Origin: Candidatus Bathyarchaeota archaeon
GTDB lineage: Archaea > Thermoproteota > Bathyarchaeia > Bathyarchaeales > Bathycorpusculaceae
DNA: 59,485 nucleotides
NCBI GenBank assembly: GCA_026014485.1
Contig: JAOZIE010000017.1
Span: 1-59,485, forward strand
Direction of reading: 5' to 3'
Under the pieces are notes generated by a model. The model saw only the letters and a program-made list of their open reading frames with translations, was not told where the DNA came from and searched no databases. Shown piece by piece: positions 33,898-42,589 of the stretch (its first letter is position 1; each line of letters begins with the position of its first letter). The translations under genes were made by a program, and so were the position numbers.

Positions 33898-34045
33898 TTG
33901 AGGTCACAATGAAGCTTTTTCCTGCAGACTATGTATGTTTCCACGCATAAAAGCTACCCGTAGAACAAACAGAATATTAGGTTACACTCTGGCAATTGAT
34001 ATTTTTAAATATGAACCGCGGCAACATAATGGCAAGGGCTTGGGT

Positions 34046-34795
34046 ATGAGTGAAAAAAGTGGCAGGCTAAAAATTGTAACTTTCTTTCTGATTGGTATTC
34101 TTGTCGGAATCGGATTCACGGAGCTTTACTTCAGTGTGAATGCCCCGGACGTCAAGCCGAGCCTAGAGCATTTGTATCGGGACGCCATAGAAGACGCCAT
34201 GGTTGCCAAGCCCAGCGAAATCTACAACGGACTCACACCCATCACGACGAGTAATCATAACTTGAACTGGACTGGCGAAGCAGGCAACGAAAGCGTGTTG
34301 GTGGTGACGTTCACGAAGTACGCTTCCAGCTACCCCCTCGGCGAAACAGTCAACACCACGTGGGGTGAAACTTGGGTCACGGTGGTTCCTGAAATCAGAA
34401 CCTTCTTCAAAACCCAAGACGCCAACATGAACGTGACGCTCAGAGCGCTGCAACTGCTTGGTTTGCCGCCCAACAACACGAACACCTACTTTGTGGAGAT
34501 GTGGGTGAATCCGCAGGCGCTTTTCCGACCTGCCCCCGACAACGAAATCAACGACACCTCGGCGCAACTGGATTTTCCCGAATCCGCAACAGCCGACTAC
34601 AAAACATGGTTCAACAACAACATAATCTACTCATACTTCCCTGAACGTTACCCATGGACGCGGTTGGGCTACACCTACGACTGGGGCAACACGAAAGGGC
34701 ATGTGGGGCTAAGCGAATTTGTGCTGAAACAGAACTCGTTGGTAACGGTAGAGTCAGTGACGCCCACACAAGAGTACTTGAAACCAGGCACCTAA
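34046..34795 (+). CDS. Signal-anchored extracellular hypothetical protein
   Basis: The 249-residue protein has an N-terminal transmembrane anchor (VTFFLIGILVGIGFTELYFS) and a soluble outer domain with many N-x-S/T sequons and aromatic residues. No known domain is recognised. The ATG at 34046 is preferred to 33935 because an ATTTTTAAATATG element near 33999-34010 is a good TATA box. It heads a plus-strand series of membrane-surface genes but is about 85 bases from the next, so operon membership is uncertain. Confidence 0.68.
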   Translation: MSEKSGRLKIVTFFLIGILVGIGFTELYFSVNAPDVKPSLEHLYRDAIEDAMVAKPSEIYNGLTPITTSNHNLNWTGEAGNESVLVVTFTKYASSYPLGETVNTTWGETWVTVVPEIRTFFKTQDANMNVTLRALQLLGLPPNNTNTYFVEMWVNPQALFRPAPDNEINDTSAQLDFPESATADYKTWFNNNIIYSYFPERYPWTRLGYTYDWGNTKGHVGLSEFVLKQNSLVTVESVTPTQEYLKPGT

Positions 34796-34880: not shown

Positions 34881-35744
34881 TTGAACAAAGCATCCGTACT
34901 AACCTGCATCTTAGTGGGAATTCTGGTAGTCTCTTTAGGCTTCAACTTCTATCAGTACAGTCAGAATGCTTCTCTGAGCAGCCAAAACAGCGGCATCAAC
35001 GCAAAACTGGAGATGGCTTCGTTGCTGACGCAGGCGCAACTCCAAGCAAACGCGGAACTGGAAAAACTTGACTGCGCGCTTGCAGAGGCGTGTGCCCAGC
35101 TTTCCGTCACTGACCTGCAGGGAAGCCAAGCGCGAAACATACTCGGTGAACTAGCCGCAAGTAACCCGCTTATTGTGAATGCTGCGACCTGCGACGCCAG
35201 TGACGTGCTTTTGGCTGTGGAACCCGACCAGTACCGCAGCATCGAAGGTGAAGACATAGCTGGCCAAGAGCAGAATATCCAGATGCATCAGACTATGCGT
35301 CCAGCCATGAGCGGCATGATTCTTCTGGTGGAGGGCTTCTACGGCGTGGTCATGGTGGCGCCTATATTCGATGGTGAGGGCGCTTTCTTTGGGTCCCTAA
35401 GCATAGTTATCCAGCCCAGCGAACTCCTTAAAGACACAGTTGAACCCCTTGCGGAGGGCAAGCCGTACTCTTTCTTCGCCATGCAAATCGACGGCAGAAT
35501 CATCTACGACGCTGACCCTGCCCAAGAAGGCAAAATGACTTTTTCTGACCCTGCATACGCCGACTTCCCAGAACTCTTAGCGTTAGGACATATTGTTTCA
35601 TCTGAAACAGCCGGGTACGGCACGTACAGTTACCACGAAACCTTCGCGTCAGCACAGGTGGTACACAAGGAGGCTTACTGGGCAACGGTGGGAATCTACG
35701 GGGCACAATGGCGACTGCTAATCATCCACACGCTTAATGCGTGA
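34881..35744 (+). CDS. Orphan Cache-like sensor protein 1
   Basis: The 287-residue protein has one N-terminal transmembrane helix (CILVGILVVSLGFNFYQYSQ), a coiled region and an extracellular double-Cache-like (dCache) domain. The telltale end pattern AGYGTYSYHE, then KEAYWATVGIYGAQWRLLII, is found in many chemoreceptor sensor domains. There is no HAMP, kinase, cyclase or chemotaxis domain after it. It begins at TTG 34881 after GGGGGAC. It is homologous over its full length to the next gene, implying a tandem duplication. Confidence 0.78.
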   Translation: MNKASVLTCILVGILVVSLGFNFYQYSQNASLSSQNSGINAKLEMASLLTQAQLQANAELEKLDCALAEACAQLSVTDLQGSQARNILGELAASNPLIVNAATCDASDVLLAVEPDQYRSIEGEDIAGQEQNIQMHQTMRPAMSGMILLVEGFYGVVMVAPIFDGEGAFFGSLSIVIQPSELLKDTVEPLAEGKPYSFFAMQIDGRIIYDADPAQEGKMTFSDPAYADFPELLALGHIVSSETAGYGTYSYHETFASAQVVHKEAYWATVGIYGAQWRLLIIHTLNA

Positions 35745-35900
35745 ATCTTGTATGCCCGTAGCAGCCAACCCTAATCTCAAAAACTCTGCCTCCCAGTTTT
35801 TTCCTAACCTCTCTATAAACTAGCAGTAAACTACTCTAATTTCGAAATGAGCAACGCCTTAATTAGGCTGGATTTCTGATTAAGTAAACGGGGACAATTG

Positions 35901-36764
35901 ATGGCGAACAAACTAAAAGTGATAACTGAACTCCTTGCTGTCGTCCTGATTATTTCGTTGGGCGTTAGCCTTTACCTCGTGAATCAAAACCTCTCCTTAA
36001 CCGACGAAAGAAACACAACAACAACTCAACTCGAGATGAATACCCTCCTGAGTCAAGGTCAAGTTGCTGCAGAAGCCGAACTGACACGAATTGGCAGCAG
36101 CGAAGTCTATGCTTCCCAGCAACTTTCAACCACTGGACTCCAAGGCAACCAAGCCCATGCCGTGTTATCGGCGTTAGCTGCAAACAGCACCTTCATAATT
36201 GACGCTGGCACCCAAGACCTCAACAGCATCATGCTTGCCGTGGAACCAAGTCAATACAGCAACGCCGAAGGTAAAAGCGTCGGCGAACAGAAATGGCTTA
36301 ACCCTAATCCCAACGGTGCAATCACGCCATGCATGACGCCAGTCATACCCCTAATCGAGAACATGACGGGCATCGCCATGGCATCACCGGTGTTCGTCGA
36401 TGGCTCGATGATTGGCACCGTAAGCGTCATTTTTAACCCGGCAGAGCTGCTTAACGCAAAACTTGCCCCACTGCTGCAAGGCAAAAGCTACGAGTTTGTT
36501 GTCATGCAACCCAACGGCCAAATACTATACAGCACCAATCCCGCAGAAGAAGGCACAAATATCTTCACAGACTCCTCGGTCGCTGGGAGCACCGAACTCT
36601 TAACTGTATGGCACCAAATTGCCGATCAAAGCTCAGGCTATGGAACATACCTATACAATCTATCCGGCGTGAGCCAAGTGACTCACAAAGAATGCGCTTG
36701 GACAACCATCAACGCGTACGGACAGCAATGGCGACTAACCATAATTTATGCGTTAAACGCATAA
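35901..36764 (+). CDS. Orphan Cache-like sensor protein 2
   Basis: This 287-residue protein is a full-length paralogue of the preceding one: same single N-terminal helix (LLAVVLIISLGVSLYLVNQN), same MLAVEPSQY and VEP-Q-Y block, and same SGYGTYLYNLSGVSQVTHKE ending with QQWRLTIIYALNA. The ligand-pocket region differs most, so the two may sense different compounds. The ATG at 35901, after GGGGAC, gives the same length as the paralogue; an adjacent TTG at 35898 is equivalent. It lacks an output domain. Confidence 0.78.
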   Translation: MANKLKVITELLAVVLIISLGVSLYLVNQNLSLTDERNTTTTQLEMNTLLSQGQVAAEAELTRIGSSEVYASQQLSTTGLQGNQAHAVLSALAANSTFIIDAGTQDLNSIMLAVEPSQYSNAEGKSVGEQKWLNPNPNGAITPCMTPVIPLIENMTGIAMASPVFVDGSMIGTVSVIFNPAELLNAKLAPLLQGKSYEFVVMQPNGQILYSTNPAEEGTNIFTDSSVAGSTELLTVWHQIADQSSGYGTYLYNLSGVSQVTHKECAWTTINAYGQQWRLTIIYALNA

Positions 36765-36804
36765 CCTTTTATTTTTTTTACGGACAAACAGAGCGCGATA
36801 AAAC

Positions 36805-37404
36805 ATGCCAGACCTGACATCAACCTTAACTAGCGTTTTTCTTTTACTTGGCACTGCCTCGTTCATGATTGTCGTTGCTTTCGTCTGTTCCAGTTTTAGC
36901 TTCTCAAAATTCGTGGTCACGCGGAAAGGTCCAATTGCCAAAGTGGTCATTGGCGCGGTTTTGGGTGTTCTGGCTATTTACGGGACGTTGATGGGAACAA
37001 AACTTGCTAACGGCACCATAGTCAACGTCAGGGAACTAGCTACTATGATTGCGGGAGTGACCGGCGGACCAATCGCAGGCACCATCGCCGGAGTCATAGG
37101 AGGAGTCCACCGATATACTGTAGGCGGCGCCACAGCGCTTCCCTGCACAATTTCAACTGTCGCCATAGGTCTAGTCTCGGGGGTAGTGTCCACAAAACTG
37201 CTGGGCACAGCATACCTGCTCAAAGGCGCCATCCTCGCAGTAGCCTCAGAGTCAGGCGCCATGGGGCTAATCCTGCTGCTCGTGCAGCCCTTTGACACGG
37301 CGGTAAACATCGTGTCGCAAATCGCCATTCCCATGATAACTGCGAATACAATCGGGCTGGTTCTCTGGATGTACCTGTTCAAACGCTGGAATGTGCTCCA
37401 CTAA
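36805..37404 (+). CDS. Stand-alone 5TM-LYT (LytS-type) membrane sensor module
   Basis: The 199-residue protein is the 5TMR-LYT membrane domain found at the N-terminus of LytS/YhcK-type histidine kinases, here with no kinase attached. Signature residues are NGTIVNVRELATMIAGVTGG, GPIAGTIAGVIGGVHRYTVG and GGATALPCTISTVAIGLVSG. It ends soon after the last helix. It begins 40 bases after the second Cache gene and is probably co-transcribed, forming a sensor cassette whose signalling partner is not present. Confidence 0.85.
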   Translation: MPDLTSTLTSVFLLLGTASFMIVVAFVCSSFSFSKFVVTRKGPIAKVVIGAVLGVLAIYGTLMGTKLANGTIVNVRELATMIAGVTGGPIAGTIAGVIGGVHRYTVGGATALPCTISTVAIGLVSGVVSTKLLGTAYLLKGAILAVASESGAMGLILLLVQPFDTAVNIVSQIAIPMITANTIGLVLWMYLFKRWNVLH

Positions 37405-37718: not shown

Positions 37719-38333
37719 ATGTTTTTTAGGCAGGTTAAGCATCACGGCGACAACTTCAGCTACATAATCGCAGACCAAGCTACGCGTGAGGCGGTGGTGG
37801 TGGATTCCAGCTTTAACGCCGACGAAATTCTACGCGTTCTCAAAGCCGAGGGCTTCACGTTAAAGTACATTATAAGTACGCATGGGCACTCGGACCACAC
37901 GGCAGGTAACTTCGAACTGAAAGCGGCTTTAGGCGGACAAATCGTTGCCCACGGGCTTTCCCGAATCAGAGTTGACCTCAAAGTTGAAGATGGTGACATC
38001 CTCAAAGTCGGTGGGATACAAATCCCAGTAATCTATACGCCTGGACACACCGCTGACGGTATCTGTTTGCTTGTGGATGGAGAGAAACTGCTGACGGGCG
38101 ACACGCTGTTTGTGGGGGAATGCGGCAGAACCGACTTGCCAGGCGGAAACCCCCGTAGCCTCTACGACAGCCTATTCAACAAGCTGCTCAGGCTGAATGA
38201 TGCCGTGGAGGTTTATCCTGGACACGACTATGGAAGTAAGCTTCACTCGACAGTTGGGGAGGAACGACGAACAAATTACGTGCTGCAGCCCCGCAGCGTT
38301 GACGAGTTTGTTGCGTTCATGCAGGAACCCTGA
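37719..38333 (+). CDS. Metallo-beta-lactamase fold hydrolase (ETHE1/GloB-like)
   Basis: The 204-residue protein has the full metal-binding set: STHGHSDHTAGN, TPGHTADG, LLTGDTLFVGECGRTDLPGG and VYPGHDYG. The CGRTDLPGG block followed by SLYDSLFNKLL resembles persulfide dioxygenase (ETHE1) more than glyoxalase II, so a role in sulfide/persulfide handling is possible; an anaerobe might use it as a thioester hydrolase instead. It starts at ATG 37719 and has no clear operon partner. Confidence 0.85.
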   Translation: MFFRQVKHHGDNFSYIIADQATREAVVVDSSFNADEILRVLKAEGFTLKYIISTHGHSDHTAGNFELKAALGGQIVAHGLSRIRVDLKVEDGDILKVGGIQIPVIYTPGHTADGICLLVDGEKLLTGDTLFVGECGRTDLPGGNPRSLYDSLFNKLLRLNDAVEVYPGHDYGSKLHSTVGEERRTNYVLQPRSVDEFVAFMQEP

Positions 38334-38406: not shown

Positions 38407-39039
38407 ATGAGGGAGCCGTGGAGTTCGCCTTATCACGTTGTTTTGGAAGTGGAGAACAAGCAGTGTGCGATAGTGAAACGTTTGTCGCCGCTGGGACTCA
38501 GGCACCTGAAGGTTGCGGACATACGCAGCTCAAACCCCAAGTCGGTTAAGCACCTGATTGAGTTGGACCCTGAGGAAGTCAGGCAAATCAAAAATCCGCC
38601 TCCTGAACTCAAAGCCACCTTGGCGCAGGGCAAATCCTCCATCTGGCTAGAAAGCGAGGGCTGCGGCGTCTGCAACACCATCCTCTCCTGTGACGCTTTT
38701 CTTGTTTCAGGCAAAAGCATAGAGGACTACACCATAATGTACAGTTTCATGGTGCCCAGCTTTGAAGCCTACCAGAAAATCGTCTCCGCCATGGAAACAG
38801 CGGGGCTAACGGTTCGGGTTCTCAAGATGGGCAGGTTCGAGGCGAAAGCGGGTGTTTTAACGGAGAAGCAGGAGCGGATATTTTGGCTTGCGTTGAAGGG
38901 CGGCTTTTTTGATTATCCCCGCAAAATTGACATGAGTGAGCTTGCGGCTAAGCTGGGCATCAGTGCGTCTACGCTTTCGGAGATTATGCGCAGAGGCATG
39001 CGGAGGCTGCTGGAGAGCTACTTTAAGAGTGAAACCTGA
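38407..39039 (+). CDS. HTH-10 (bacterio-opsin activator-like) regulator
   Basis: The 210-residue protein ends in the Bat-type HTH-10 domain: LTEKQERIFWLALKGGFFDY, PRKIDMSELAAKLGISASTL, SEIMRRGMRRLLESYF. The N-terminal 140 residues have a fold typical of this archaeal regulator group, with cysteines at ESEGCGVCNTILSC that could sense redox or metal. It is co-directional with the preceding hydrolase (about 70 bases) and convergently overlaps the racemase-family gene by 17 bases. Confidence 0.85.
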   Translation: MREPWSSPYHVVLEVENKQCAIVKRLSPLGLRHLKVADIRSSNPKSVKHLIELDPEEVRQIKNPPPELKATLAQGKSSIWLESEGCGVCNTILSCDAFLVSGKSIEDYTIMYSFMVPSFEAYQKIVSAMETAGLTVRVLKMGRFEAKAGVLTEKQERIFWLALKGGFFDYPRKIDMSELAAKLGISASTLSEIMRRGMRRLLESYFKSET

Positions 39040-39736
39040 AAACCTCAAGTAGCCTGCCAAGACGCGGTCTGAAACTACTGTTTAAGGCTCTTAGGCTTGC
39101 CCACAGCGTCGCCGAGTTGCTGCTGACCACTGGCTTATGCAGTTCCCCCTCTAAACCAGACAGCATCTCAAATGTGGCTAGGTTTGTGCAGCTTACGAAT
39201 AGGGCATCTGAGACGGTTGAGTCGGCGCTTCTCGCTAAGACCGCCGCATCATCTGCGGTTAACCTACCGATGTCCAAGTTGCTTTTCAGGTTAAATGCCT
39301 GCAGATTCACGATTTCAAAACCGCTTTTCTCCAAAAAATCCACTTCCCTCTTGTTGACTTCATCCACGTAGGGCGTTGCCAACGCAATTCGGTGCGCGTC
39401 CACCTCTTTTAGGGCTTCGACTACCGCGTGGGAAGTGACCACAACTGGGCAAGCGGCGATTTTGCTGATTTTCTGTGCAATGACGGCGTCGTGCCCTAAC
39501 CCCTTGATTAGGCTACCTGAGGTGCAGGCGAACGCCACCGCGTTTACGTCTGCGTCTTTGAGGAGCCTTGCGGCGGCTTCTGTTTCTTTTTCCATGGCTG
39601 AAAGCGCCTGGACGGTGACTTCTCGCAGGGGAATCCGAGCGGTGTGCAGGCTGATTTGGGAGCCCCAGAGGGCAGCCGTGAACTCAACTTCAACAGTAAT
39701 GTTTGAAGAGGGTACAATAACGCCTAAGCGCTGCAT
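39023..39736 (-). CDS. Asp/Glu racemase superfamily enzyme (maleate isomerase-like)
   Basis: The 237-residue protein resembles maleate cis-trans isomerase/arylmalonate decarboxylase. It has LGVIVPSSNITVEVEF at the N-terminus, a first catalytic-type cysteine in AFACTSGSLIKG and a second in LFVSCTNLATFEM, the two-cysteine arrangement of the superfamily. An internal ATG at 39736 is preferred to a TTG at 39757. The substrate is unknown; no degradation pathway genes are adjacent. Confidence 0.8.
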   Translation of the reverse strand: MQRLGVIVPSSNITVEVEFTAALWGSQISLHTARIPLREVTVQALSAMEKETEAAARLLKDADVNAVAFACTSGSLIKGLGHDAVIAQKISKIAACPVVVTSHAVVEALKEVDAHRIALATPYVDEVNKREVDFLEKSGFEIVNLQAFNLKSNLDIGRLTADDAAVLARSADSTVSDALFVSCTNLATFEMLSGLEGELHKPVVSSNSATLWASLRALNSSFRPRLGRLLEVFRFHS

Positions 39737-39887
39737 AACAAAAGAAGTGCCCTGCAAGTATTTCTTAATTTTCCCTTGAAGTGCTTGATGTGACTCCCCT
39801 CTCCCTAATAATTATGCTGTATCCTATAATTAGTGATGCTCTTTTATGGCAAAAAGTTTTAGTTTAAATTATTTATTTCTTTAGAGT

Positions 39888-40936: not shown

Positions 40937-42589
40937 ATGAGTCAAACTCAAACTGAAACCGAAATGTTCTGTTGGCAATGTGAGCAAACCGCCAAAGGCA
41001 CCGGCTGCACAGCTTTTGGTGTATGCGGAAAATCGCCCCAAGTAGCCCAACTCCAAGACCTACTAATCTACGTGCTCAAAGGGTTATCGCAGGTTACGCT
41101 GGAAGCCCGCAAACTCGGCATAAAAGACGAAAAAACCGACCTATTCATCACCGAAGCAGCATTCGTCACCCTCACAAACGTGAACTTCGACCCAGACAGC
41201 ATCACACGATACCTGCAGTTAGCAGTTGAAGCCCGCGAAAACCTAAAAAAGAAAATTGCACCCGCAGGCAAAAAAACAGGCTTCGACCAAGCAGCAGCTT
41301 TACAGCTGGAAAAAACAATCGAAGCCATGGCAGAACAGGGCAAAAAACACGGCATACACGCAGACTCCACATTGGACCCTGACTTGCGTGGGTTGCAGTG
41401 GCTGCTGATCTACGGCGTAAAGGGCGTAGCGGCATACGCTTACCACGCTTACCGATTAGGCGAAAAAGACAACCAAGTCTTCGAATTCATCCAACAAGCC
41501 CTCGCAGCAACCCTCAACAAAAACCTTGGCGTAAACGACTTCGTTAACTTAGCCCTAAAATGCGGCGAAATAAACATCCTTGCCATGCAACTCCTTGACG
41601 CAGCAAACACCAAAACCTACGGACACCCCGTCCCAACCAAAGTCCCACTCGGACACAAAAAAGGCAAAGCCATCCTCGTCTCGGGACACGACCTCAAAGA
41701 CTTAGACGCCCTCCTCAAGCAAACCGAAGGCAAAGGCATCACCGTCTACACCCACGGCGAAATGCTTCCCGCACACGGCTACCCCCAACTCAAAAAGCAC
41801 CTCCACTTCTACGGACACTACGGCACCGCATGGCAAAACCAAATCCGCGAATTTCCCAACTTCCCAGGCGCAATCCTCATGACCACCAACTGCATCCAAA
41901 AACCCGCCGAAACCTACAAAGAAAACATCTTTACAACTGGACCAGTCGGTTGGCCAGACGTTCCACATATCCCCGATGAAGACTTCACCCCAGTCATAAA
42001 CAAAGCCCTATCCATGCGGGGATTCACAGAGGACACTGAAGGCAAAACCGTCACGGTGGGCTTTGCCAGAAACGCCGTTCTCGGAGTAGCAGACGCAGTA
42101 ATAGATGCAGTCAAAAAGGGGCACATCAAGCACTTTTTCCTCGTTGGCGGCTGCGACGGCGCAAAACCAGGACGCAGTTACTACACCGAATTCGTGGATA
42201 AAGCACCAAAAGACACCGTTATCTTGACGTTGGCATGTGGCAAATTCCGCTTTTTCGACAAAGAACTCGGCGACATAGACGGTATCCCCCGACTGCTAGA
42301 CATCGGGCAATGCAACGACGCATACTCGGCTGTGGTGATTGCACAAGCATTGGCAAAAGCTTTCGGCGTTGGCTTAAACGAGCTGCCGCTGTCGATGATT
42401 ATTTCGTGGTACGAGCAGAAAGCCGTAGCAATCCTGCTTTCACTACTGTACTTAGGTGTCAAAAACATCCGTTTAGGACCAAGCCTGCCAGCATTCATAA
42501 CTCCCAACGTGCTGAAAGTGCTAGTAGACAACTTCAATATTATGCCCATAAAAACAGCCAACGAAGACCTCAGAACAATTCTAGGTTAA
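40937..42589 (+). CDS. hcp: Hybrid-cluster protein (hydroxylamine reductase)
   Basis: The 550-residue protein is Hcp, which carries a [4Fe-4S] cluster and a hybrid Fe-S-O cluster and reduces hydroxylamine and, in some bacteria, nitric oxide. The N-terminal motif is C-x2-C-x8-C-x5-C (FCWQCEQTAKGTGCTAFGVC), the class I pattern. Hybrid-cluster ligands are visible in SGHDLKD, THGEMLPAHG, TTNCIQKP, GGCDGAKPGR, ACGKFRFF, IGQCNDAYSA and SWYEQKAVA. AAGGTGA lies 9 bases before the ATG. An iron-sulfur flavoprotein gene is convergent downstream. Confidence 0.95.
   Translation: MSQTQTETEMFCWQCEQTAKGTGCTAFGVCGKSPQVAQLQDLLIYVLKGLSQVTLEARKLGIKDEKTDLFITEAAFVTLTNVNFDPDSITRYLQLAVEARENLKKKIAPAGKKTGFDQAAALQLEKTIEAMAEQGKKHGIHADSTLDPDLRGLQWLLIYGVKGVAAYAYHAYRLGEKDNQVFEFIQQALAATLNKNLGVNDFVNLALKCGEINILAMQLLDAANTKTYGHPVPTKVPLGHKKGKAILVSGHDLKDLDALLKQTEGKGITVYTHGEMLPAHGYPQLKKHLHFYGHYGTAWQNQIREFPNFPGAILMTTNCIQKPAETYKENIFTTGPVGWPDVPHIPDEDFTPVINKALSMRGFTEDTEGKTVTVGFARNAVLGVADAVIDAVKKGHIKHFFLVGGCDGAKPGRSYYTEFVDKAPKDTVILTLACGKFRFFDKELGDIDGIPRLLDIGQCNDAYSAVVIAQALAKAFGVGLNELPLSMIISWYEQKAVAILLSLLYLGVKNIRLGPSLPAFITPNVLKVLVDNFNIMPIKTANEDLRTILG

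Follow-up and report, generated by a model that had tools for sequence, protein, structure and literature searches.

A Cache–LYT gene cassette without output domains in Bathyarchaeia, a possible split ligand-recognition complex

A run of genes from a bathyarchaeal genome encodes two membrane-anchored Cache proteins and a free LYT sensor module with no output domain among them. Its core, a Cache gene directly followed by a LYT gene, is kept together in three genome locations in relatives, and the pair is therefore probably a real functional unit. Our leading, if tentative, explanation is that the cassette forms a split, output-less ligand-recognition complex at the outer surface of the archaeal membrane. 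The parts themselves are known; what is new is their combination, a stand-alone LYT protein with output-less Caches. The literature describes LYT domains as the input modules of kinases, of cyclases and of other fusion proteins. We know of no description of a Cache–LYT pairing, and our searches of the open-access literature found none. Output-less Caches alongside a conserved, free-standing LYT protein whose receptor pocket is intact provide a concrete system for studying whether such modules can sense or transport without a fused effector and allow one to ask how archaea without HAMP or chemoreceptor proteins read external Cache sensors.

A run of four genes without an output domain

The cassette lies in a stretch of 59,485 nucleotides (contig JAOZIE010000017.1, hereafter the window). 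The analysed genome, G000, comprises 2.37 Mb in 26 contigs and is 96.5% complete. Of three adjacent + strand genes, two code for PF22309 (dCache-type) proteins and the third for a PF07694 (5TMR-LYT) protein, and Pfam detected no other domain in them. This agrees with the original prediction, made from the DNA alone, that the three sensors carry no signalling domain. The run starts one gene earlier than had been thought, at 34046, with a gene that we refer to as c4. Its members are:

34046–34795, + strand: c4, a tryptophan-rich, anchored extracellular protein of 249 aa; first gene of the run, start taken from the alignment of relatives

34881–35744, + strand: Cache1, a dCache protein (PF22309) of 287 aa with a TTG start; clade A, Dret_0059-like (Pfam, AF2 model, tree)

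35898 or 35901–36764, + strand: Cache2, a dCache protein (PF22309) of 287–288 aa; clade B paralogue with a diverged membrane-distal lobe (Pfam, tree)

36805–37404, + strand: stand-alone 5TMR-LYT protein (PF07694) of 199 aa with a BtsS-type pyruvate-site signature (Pfam, pocket alignment)

The open frame of c4 starts at 33935 and the alignment of its relatives at 34046. The protein has one N-terminal membrane helix and is strongly conserved (68% mean column identity). Profile searches of Pfam, NCBIfam and the PDB found no relatives of it, and its AF2 model reached a pLDDT of only 36.9.

The Cache–LYT pair recurs in three genomic contexts

Across 257 genomes of the class, PF07694 gave 15 strong matches, all above 120 bits, and the next match scored 36.5 bits. 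Matches below 37 bits, which may be S-components, were left out of the LYT count. Eight of the 15 strong LYT genes lie directly 3' of a Cache gene on the same strand, with a gap of 16–41 bp (genomes G000, G131, G085, G100, G096, G094, G101 and G093). The flanks of the pair are of three kinds: in five genomes a HAD phosphatase gene and a gene that we call c5 lie upstream; in G000 and G096 a divergent ABC transporter gene lies upstream and an MBL hydrolase gene downstream (37719–38333 in the window); and G131 has a third arrangement. We estimate that a random LYT gene would adjoin a Cache gene with a chance of about 1 in 1,000 (one to six Caches per ~2,300 genes). With the pair in three locations, coincidence is therefore unlikely. 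Both the domain assignments and the linkage on which the original prediction depended are upheld, the former by profile matches and the latter by a gene order, Cache directly upstream of LYT, that is conserved in eight genomes.

Neighbouring genes were considered as further members of the cassette. The HAD phosphatase and c5 were rejected as widespread neighbours: c5 (205 aa) is found in about half of the 257 class genomes and in nearly all of the family of G000, where it is encoded elsewhere (G000:C12:182851). The MBL hydrolase and the divergent ABC transporter are shared with G096 only and were assigned to the flanking context. Just 3' of the MBL hydrolase gene, the window encodes an HTH_10 regulator of the bacterioopsin-activator type (38407–39039), which in relatives does not stand beside the cassette. 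Tail-to-tail with it lies a PF17645 gene of the arylmalonate decarboxylase/maleate isomerase type (39023–39757), and the window also holds a gene for a Prismane/hybrid cluster protein (PF03063, 563 bits; 40937–42589).

Two anchored dCache proteins of different ancestry

Both Cache proteins match PF22309 well above its cut-off of 27 bits (Cache1 at 119 bits, Cache2 at 72 bits; Pfam), and Cache2 is also matched, weakly, by dCache_1. They are 41% identical across their full length (E 3e-79), which bears out their description as full-length paralogues. The AF2 model of Cache1 (pLDDT 89.9) has a two-lobed Cache fold after one long N-terminal helix (residues 3–75), the first part of which is the membrane anchor, probably uncleaved. 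A second hydrophobic stretch, residues 145–163, coincides in the model with a loop and a strand. The single membrane helix that had been proposed for each Cache is therefore correct, with the model and the hydropathy of Cache1 showing the N-terminal helix only. In ordinary dCache receptors, a second membrane helix connects the second lobe to a HAMP or output domain. By contrast, neither model nor hydropathy places a second membrane helix toward a HAMP or output domain in Cache1: the last strand, at residue 285, forms its C-terminus, and its cytoplasmic part amounts to about five residues.

The top PDB matches of the Cache1 model are mostly dCache ligand-binding domains (Foldseek). The best of them, 5ERE, is Dret_0059 of Desulfohalobium retbaense, the closest solved relative (phmmer E 5e-47, Foldseek E 2e-26); residues 41–282 of Cache1 match residues 321–560 of the 5ERE chain, its Cache part only. 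The Cache of Dret_0059 is preceded by an extracellular solute-binding domain in the same chain, and this binding-protein half reportedly held a keto acid in 5ERE. Cache1, by contrast, has no N-terminal solute-binding domain and stands alone on a membrane anchor with a LYT gene nearby.

In a tree of the Cache proteins, Cache1 groups with the cassette Caches of G131 and G096 (support 94/86), and Cache2 with eight Caches sited elsewhere, mostly beside a divergent cysS (clade support 100/100). Local duplication was rejected as their origin, as the two fall into different old clades and are old paralogues. The membrane-distal lobe of clade A has a set of residues in common with Dret_0059 (D105, Y118, D125, Q129, E130, Q131, T138, S144, V150, E151 and G152), and clade B differs at most of these positions; Cache1 retains this signature and Cache2 has lost it. 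From this difference we infer that Cache1 and Cache2 would bind different ligands. PMC8694187 lists 5ERE among the cytosine-binding dCaches, and the ligand of Cache1 may perhaps be nucleobase-like. Cache genes often stand in tandem (L066, L064, L076), with two clade-A copies in G100 and in G094 and three clade-B copies in G094.

A free LYT module with a receptor-type pocket

The LYT protein matches PF07694 with 129.5 bits (cut-off 24.6) over domain positions 4–167 of 169. It shares this domain with BtsS (YehU), the LytS-type pyruvate receptor kinase of E. coli. BtsS, however, has a kinase part, whereas Pfam found no kinase domain on the LYT chain, which stops after the membrane bundle, about seven residues past the last helix. 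BtsS has seven membrane helices (PMC10653868, PMC11109136), an extra N-terminal helix, H0, being added to the six-helix core common to ECF S-components (PMC11109136). The N-terminal helix of the LYT protein (residues 10–28) occupies the H0 position, and by homology to BtsS this "5TM" protein should have seven helices. The stand-alone LytS-type sensor of the original prediction was thus recovered, but probably with seven helices instead of the five ascribed to it.

Aligned with BtsS (E. coli NC_000913.3), the LYT protein keeps the equivalents of N70, R72, R99, C110, S113 and T114, including the NxR motif. Its pocket residues Arg76, Arg103, Cys114 and Ser117 correspond to R72, R99, C110 and S113 with identical spacing. 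In BtsS, alanine at any of these four positions abolishes or strongly reduces pyruvate sensing and lowers affinity (PMC10653868). In the LYT alignment both arginines are highly conserved and C110 and S113 more variable, and the latter two are common among LYT kinases (71–79% of the alignment; PMC10653868). Given how common they are, the pocket would favour a BtsS-like ligand without proving pyruvate; the residue set has diagnostic value but is not confined to pyruvate receptors. The full set is present in all eight Cache-linked LYT proteins, and four of the seven unlinked ones carry alanine at the S113 site. Two unlinked ones that otherwise resemble the linked group, L082 and L084, retain the full signature.

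LYT domains have recently been proposed as kin of the S-components of vitamin transporters (PMC11109136), with which they share the six-helix fold. This kinship raises an explanation that the original prediction left unconsidered, namely that the cassette is an uptake system in which the LYT protein is an S-component-like transporter, either solitary or working with a distant ECF module, and the Caches are its extracellular substrate-binding subunits. We consider this rather unlikely, yet a serious rival, and several observations speak for it. Helix H6 is the end of S-components but not of LYT kinases, whose chain goes on (PMC11109136), and the LYT protein resembles S-components in ending a few residues past its last helix. 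A GxxxG-type small-residue motif, noted by eye, is present in helix 1 of the Cache-linked LYT proteins. EcfT-family genes were found in 13 of 13 genomes tested, two of them in G000, but their presence does not discriminate between the readings, being compatible with uptake without supporting it. On the other side are the H0 helix, typical of receptors and untypical of S-components, the receptor-type pocket signature, and the lack of any ECF gene beside the cassette. With an H0-type helix at one end and a stop at the last helix at the other, the LYT protein looks like a receptor at its N-terminus and like a transporter subunit at its C-terminus, a mixed appearance.

Cache and c4 genes also occur apart

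PF22309 was found in 11 of the 257 Bathyarchaeia genomes, where all 24 intact genes encode stand-alone proteins of 274–303 aa. In a phylum-wide sample of 398 genomes, PF22309 matches from beyond Bathyarchaeia sit in open frames of about 550–650 aa, and all four that were domain-scanned are dCache–HisKA–HATPase kinases. These share the PF22309/dCache_1 sensor with the cassette Caches but carry HisKA and HATPase_c, both of which the Bathyarchaeia Caches lack. The missing output is therefore a stable trait of the Bathyarchaeia PF22309 group. A contig scan with the Cache alignment, using one narrow pattern, returned seven loci only, in Bathyarchaeota/Crenarchaeota MAGs.

The gene c4 stands directly before a Cache gene in six genomes (G000, G085, G100, G096, G094 and G095). 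In five of these c4, Cache and LYT follow in a row, and G095 has c4 and Cache without LYT. Two Caches lie within the run in G000, G100 and G094. As five other genomes carry c4 but no Cache at all, the association of c4 with Cache is frequent but not obligate. In one of these five, G107 (L119:4195–4896), a c4 copy with an in-frame TGA occupies the HAD–c5 location and both Cache and LYT are absent; this cassette is apparently decaying or partly lost.

Cache genes likewise occur as solitary copies (for example beside cysS), in tandem twos or threes, or with c4 and no LYT. Such separations, like the c4 genes of Cache-free genomes, are what one would expect if the products were separate sensors or binding proteins, transcribed together but forming no complex and serving for example in ligand scavenging or cell-surface binding. 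We regard this as improbable: the Cache–LYT pair recurs in three separate contexts, more than unrelated functions would predict. Although these domains are otherwise known as kinase input parts, it is very improbable that the genes are degenerate remnants of full receptors that lost their kinase, as neither the 24 intact frames of stand-alone Caches nor the 15 of the strong LYT matches contain internal stops, and conserved pocket residues and clean ends are found as well.

Candidates for the output partner

Profile searches of G000 found neither a HAMP domain nor an MCP signalling domain. This speaks against the separately encoded HAMP protein that had been suggested as a partner, and HAMP and MCP proteins were rejected as the output of this cassette. 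Among the 11 Cache genomes, HAMP is present in six and MCP in four, and neither in G000, G092, G093 and G101; these genomes are MAGs of 85–97% completeness, and any single absence is soft. With four genomes lacking both, however, an obligatory HAMP or chemoreceptor partner is unlikely. No output gene was found to travel with the cassette in the loci of relatives. G000 encodes nine histidine kinases, six without membrane helices and three with, and a soluble PAS-type kinase is a possible partner. A tenth HATPase match was rejected as a kinase, its sequence resembling topoisomerase VI subunit B. A PAS kinase gene divergent from a Cache gene in L067 was also set aside as a single case at about chance level by our estimate. 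Several Bathyarchaeia encode HAMP domains in short frames of 269–310 aa (G088:C75, G098:C8, G095:C11, G127:C63 and G087:C56), which possibly lack an output domain.

A possible split recognition complex

In the split recognition complex that we tentatively favour, the free LYT module would act as a receptor whose most likely ligand, judged from the conserved pocket, is pyruvate or a closely related alpha-keto acid. As single-pass anchored dCache domains, Cache1 and Cache2 would likely recognise two further, different ligands. The Caches have no second helix and only a short cytoplasmic part, and the LYT chain stops at the final helix; therefore none of them is likely to signal alone. In line with the original prediction, which had the three products assemble with each other or with a separately encoded output protein, we suggest that the anchors of the Caches would lie against the LYT helix bundle and that the state of the complex would be passed to a separately encoded partner without a HAMP or chemoreceptor domain, for example a soluble PAS kinase. 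Several findings count against such a complex: Cache genes without LYT (G095 and the solitary copies) indicate that LYT is dispensable for Cache; seven strong LYT genes adjoin no Cache, among them L082 and L084 with their full pocket signature; no output gene accompanies the cassette; and the S-component fold of LYT would allow transport instead. With somewhat greater reserve, we propose that the cassette is a multi-ligand receptor in which a pyruvate-type LYT protein, anchored dCache co-receptors and a new extracellular subunit are joined by their membrane helices and act on a non-HAMP, non-chemoreceptor partner, or else that it represents an intermediate stage between S-component and LYT receptor.

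Membrane-anchored binding proteins that hand information to separate archaeal transducers are known from Halobacterium, in the form of BasB and CosB. Their folds differ from those of the cassette proteins, and the genes of their transducers lie next to their own; in G000 the searches revealed no transducer.

LYT genes outside the cassette

G000 encodes a second stand-alone LYT protein (G000:C12:229683–230168; L088:9564–10280) of 238 aa, which is divergent, 36% identical and has no adjoining Cache. It keeps serine at the BtsS S113 site, where its relatives in G129 and G093 carry alanine. In G093 (L086:7255–10683), the gene after an unlinked LYT gene is, by eye, ketol-acid reductoisomerase-like, and a gene for an ArsB/CitMHS-type permease comes next; these neighbours possibly hint at 2-oxo acid metabolism.
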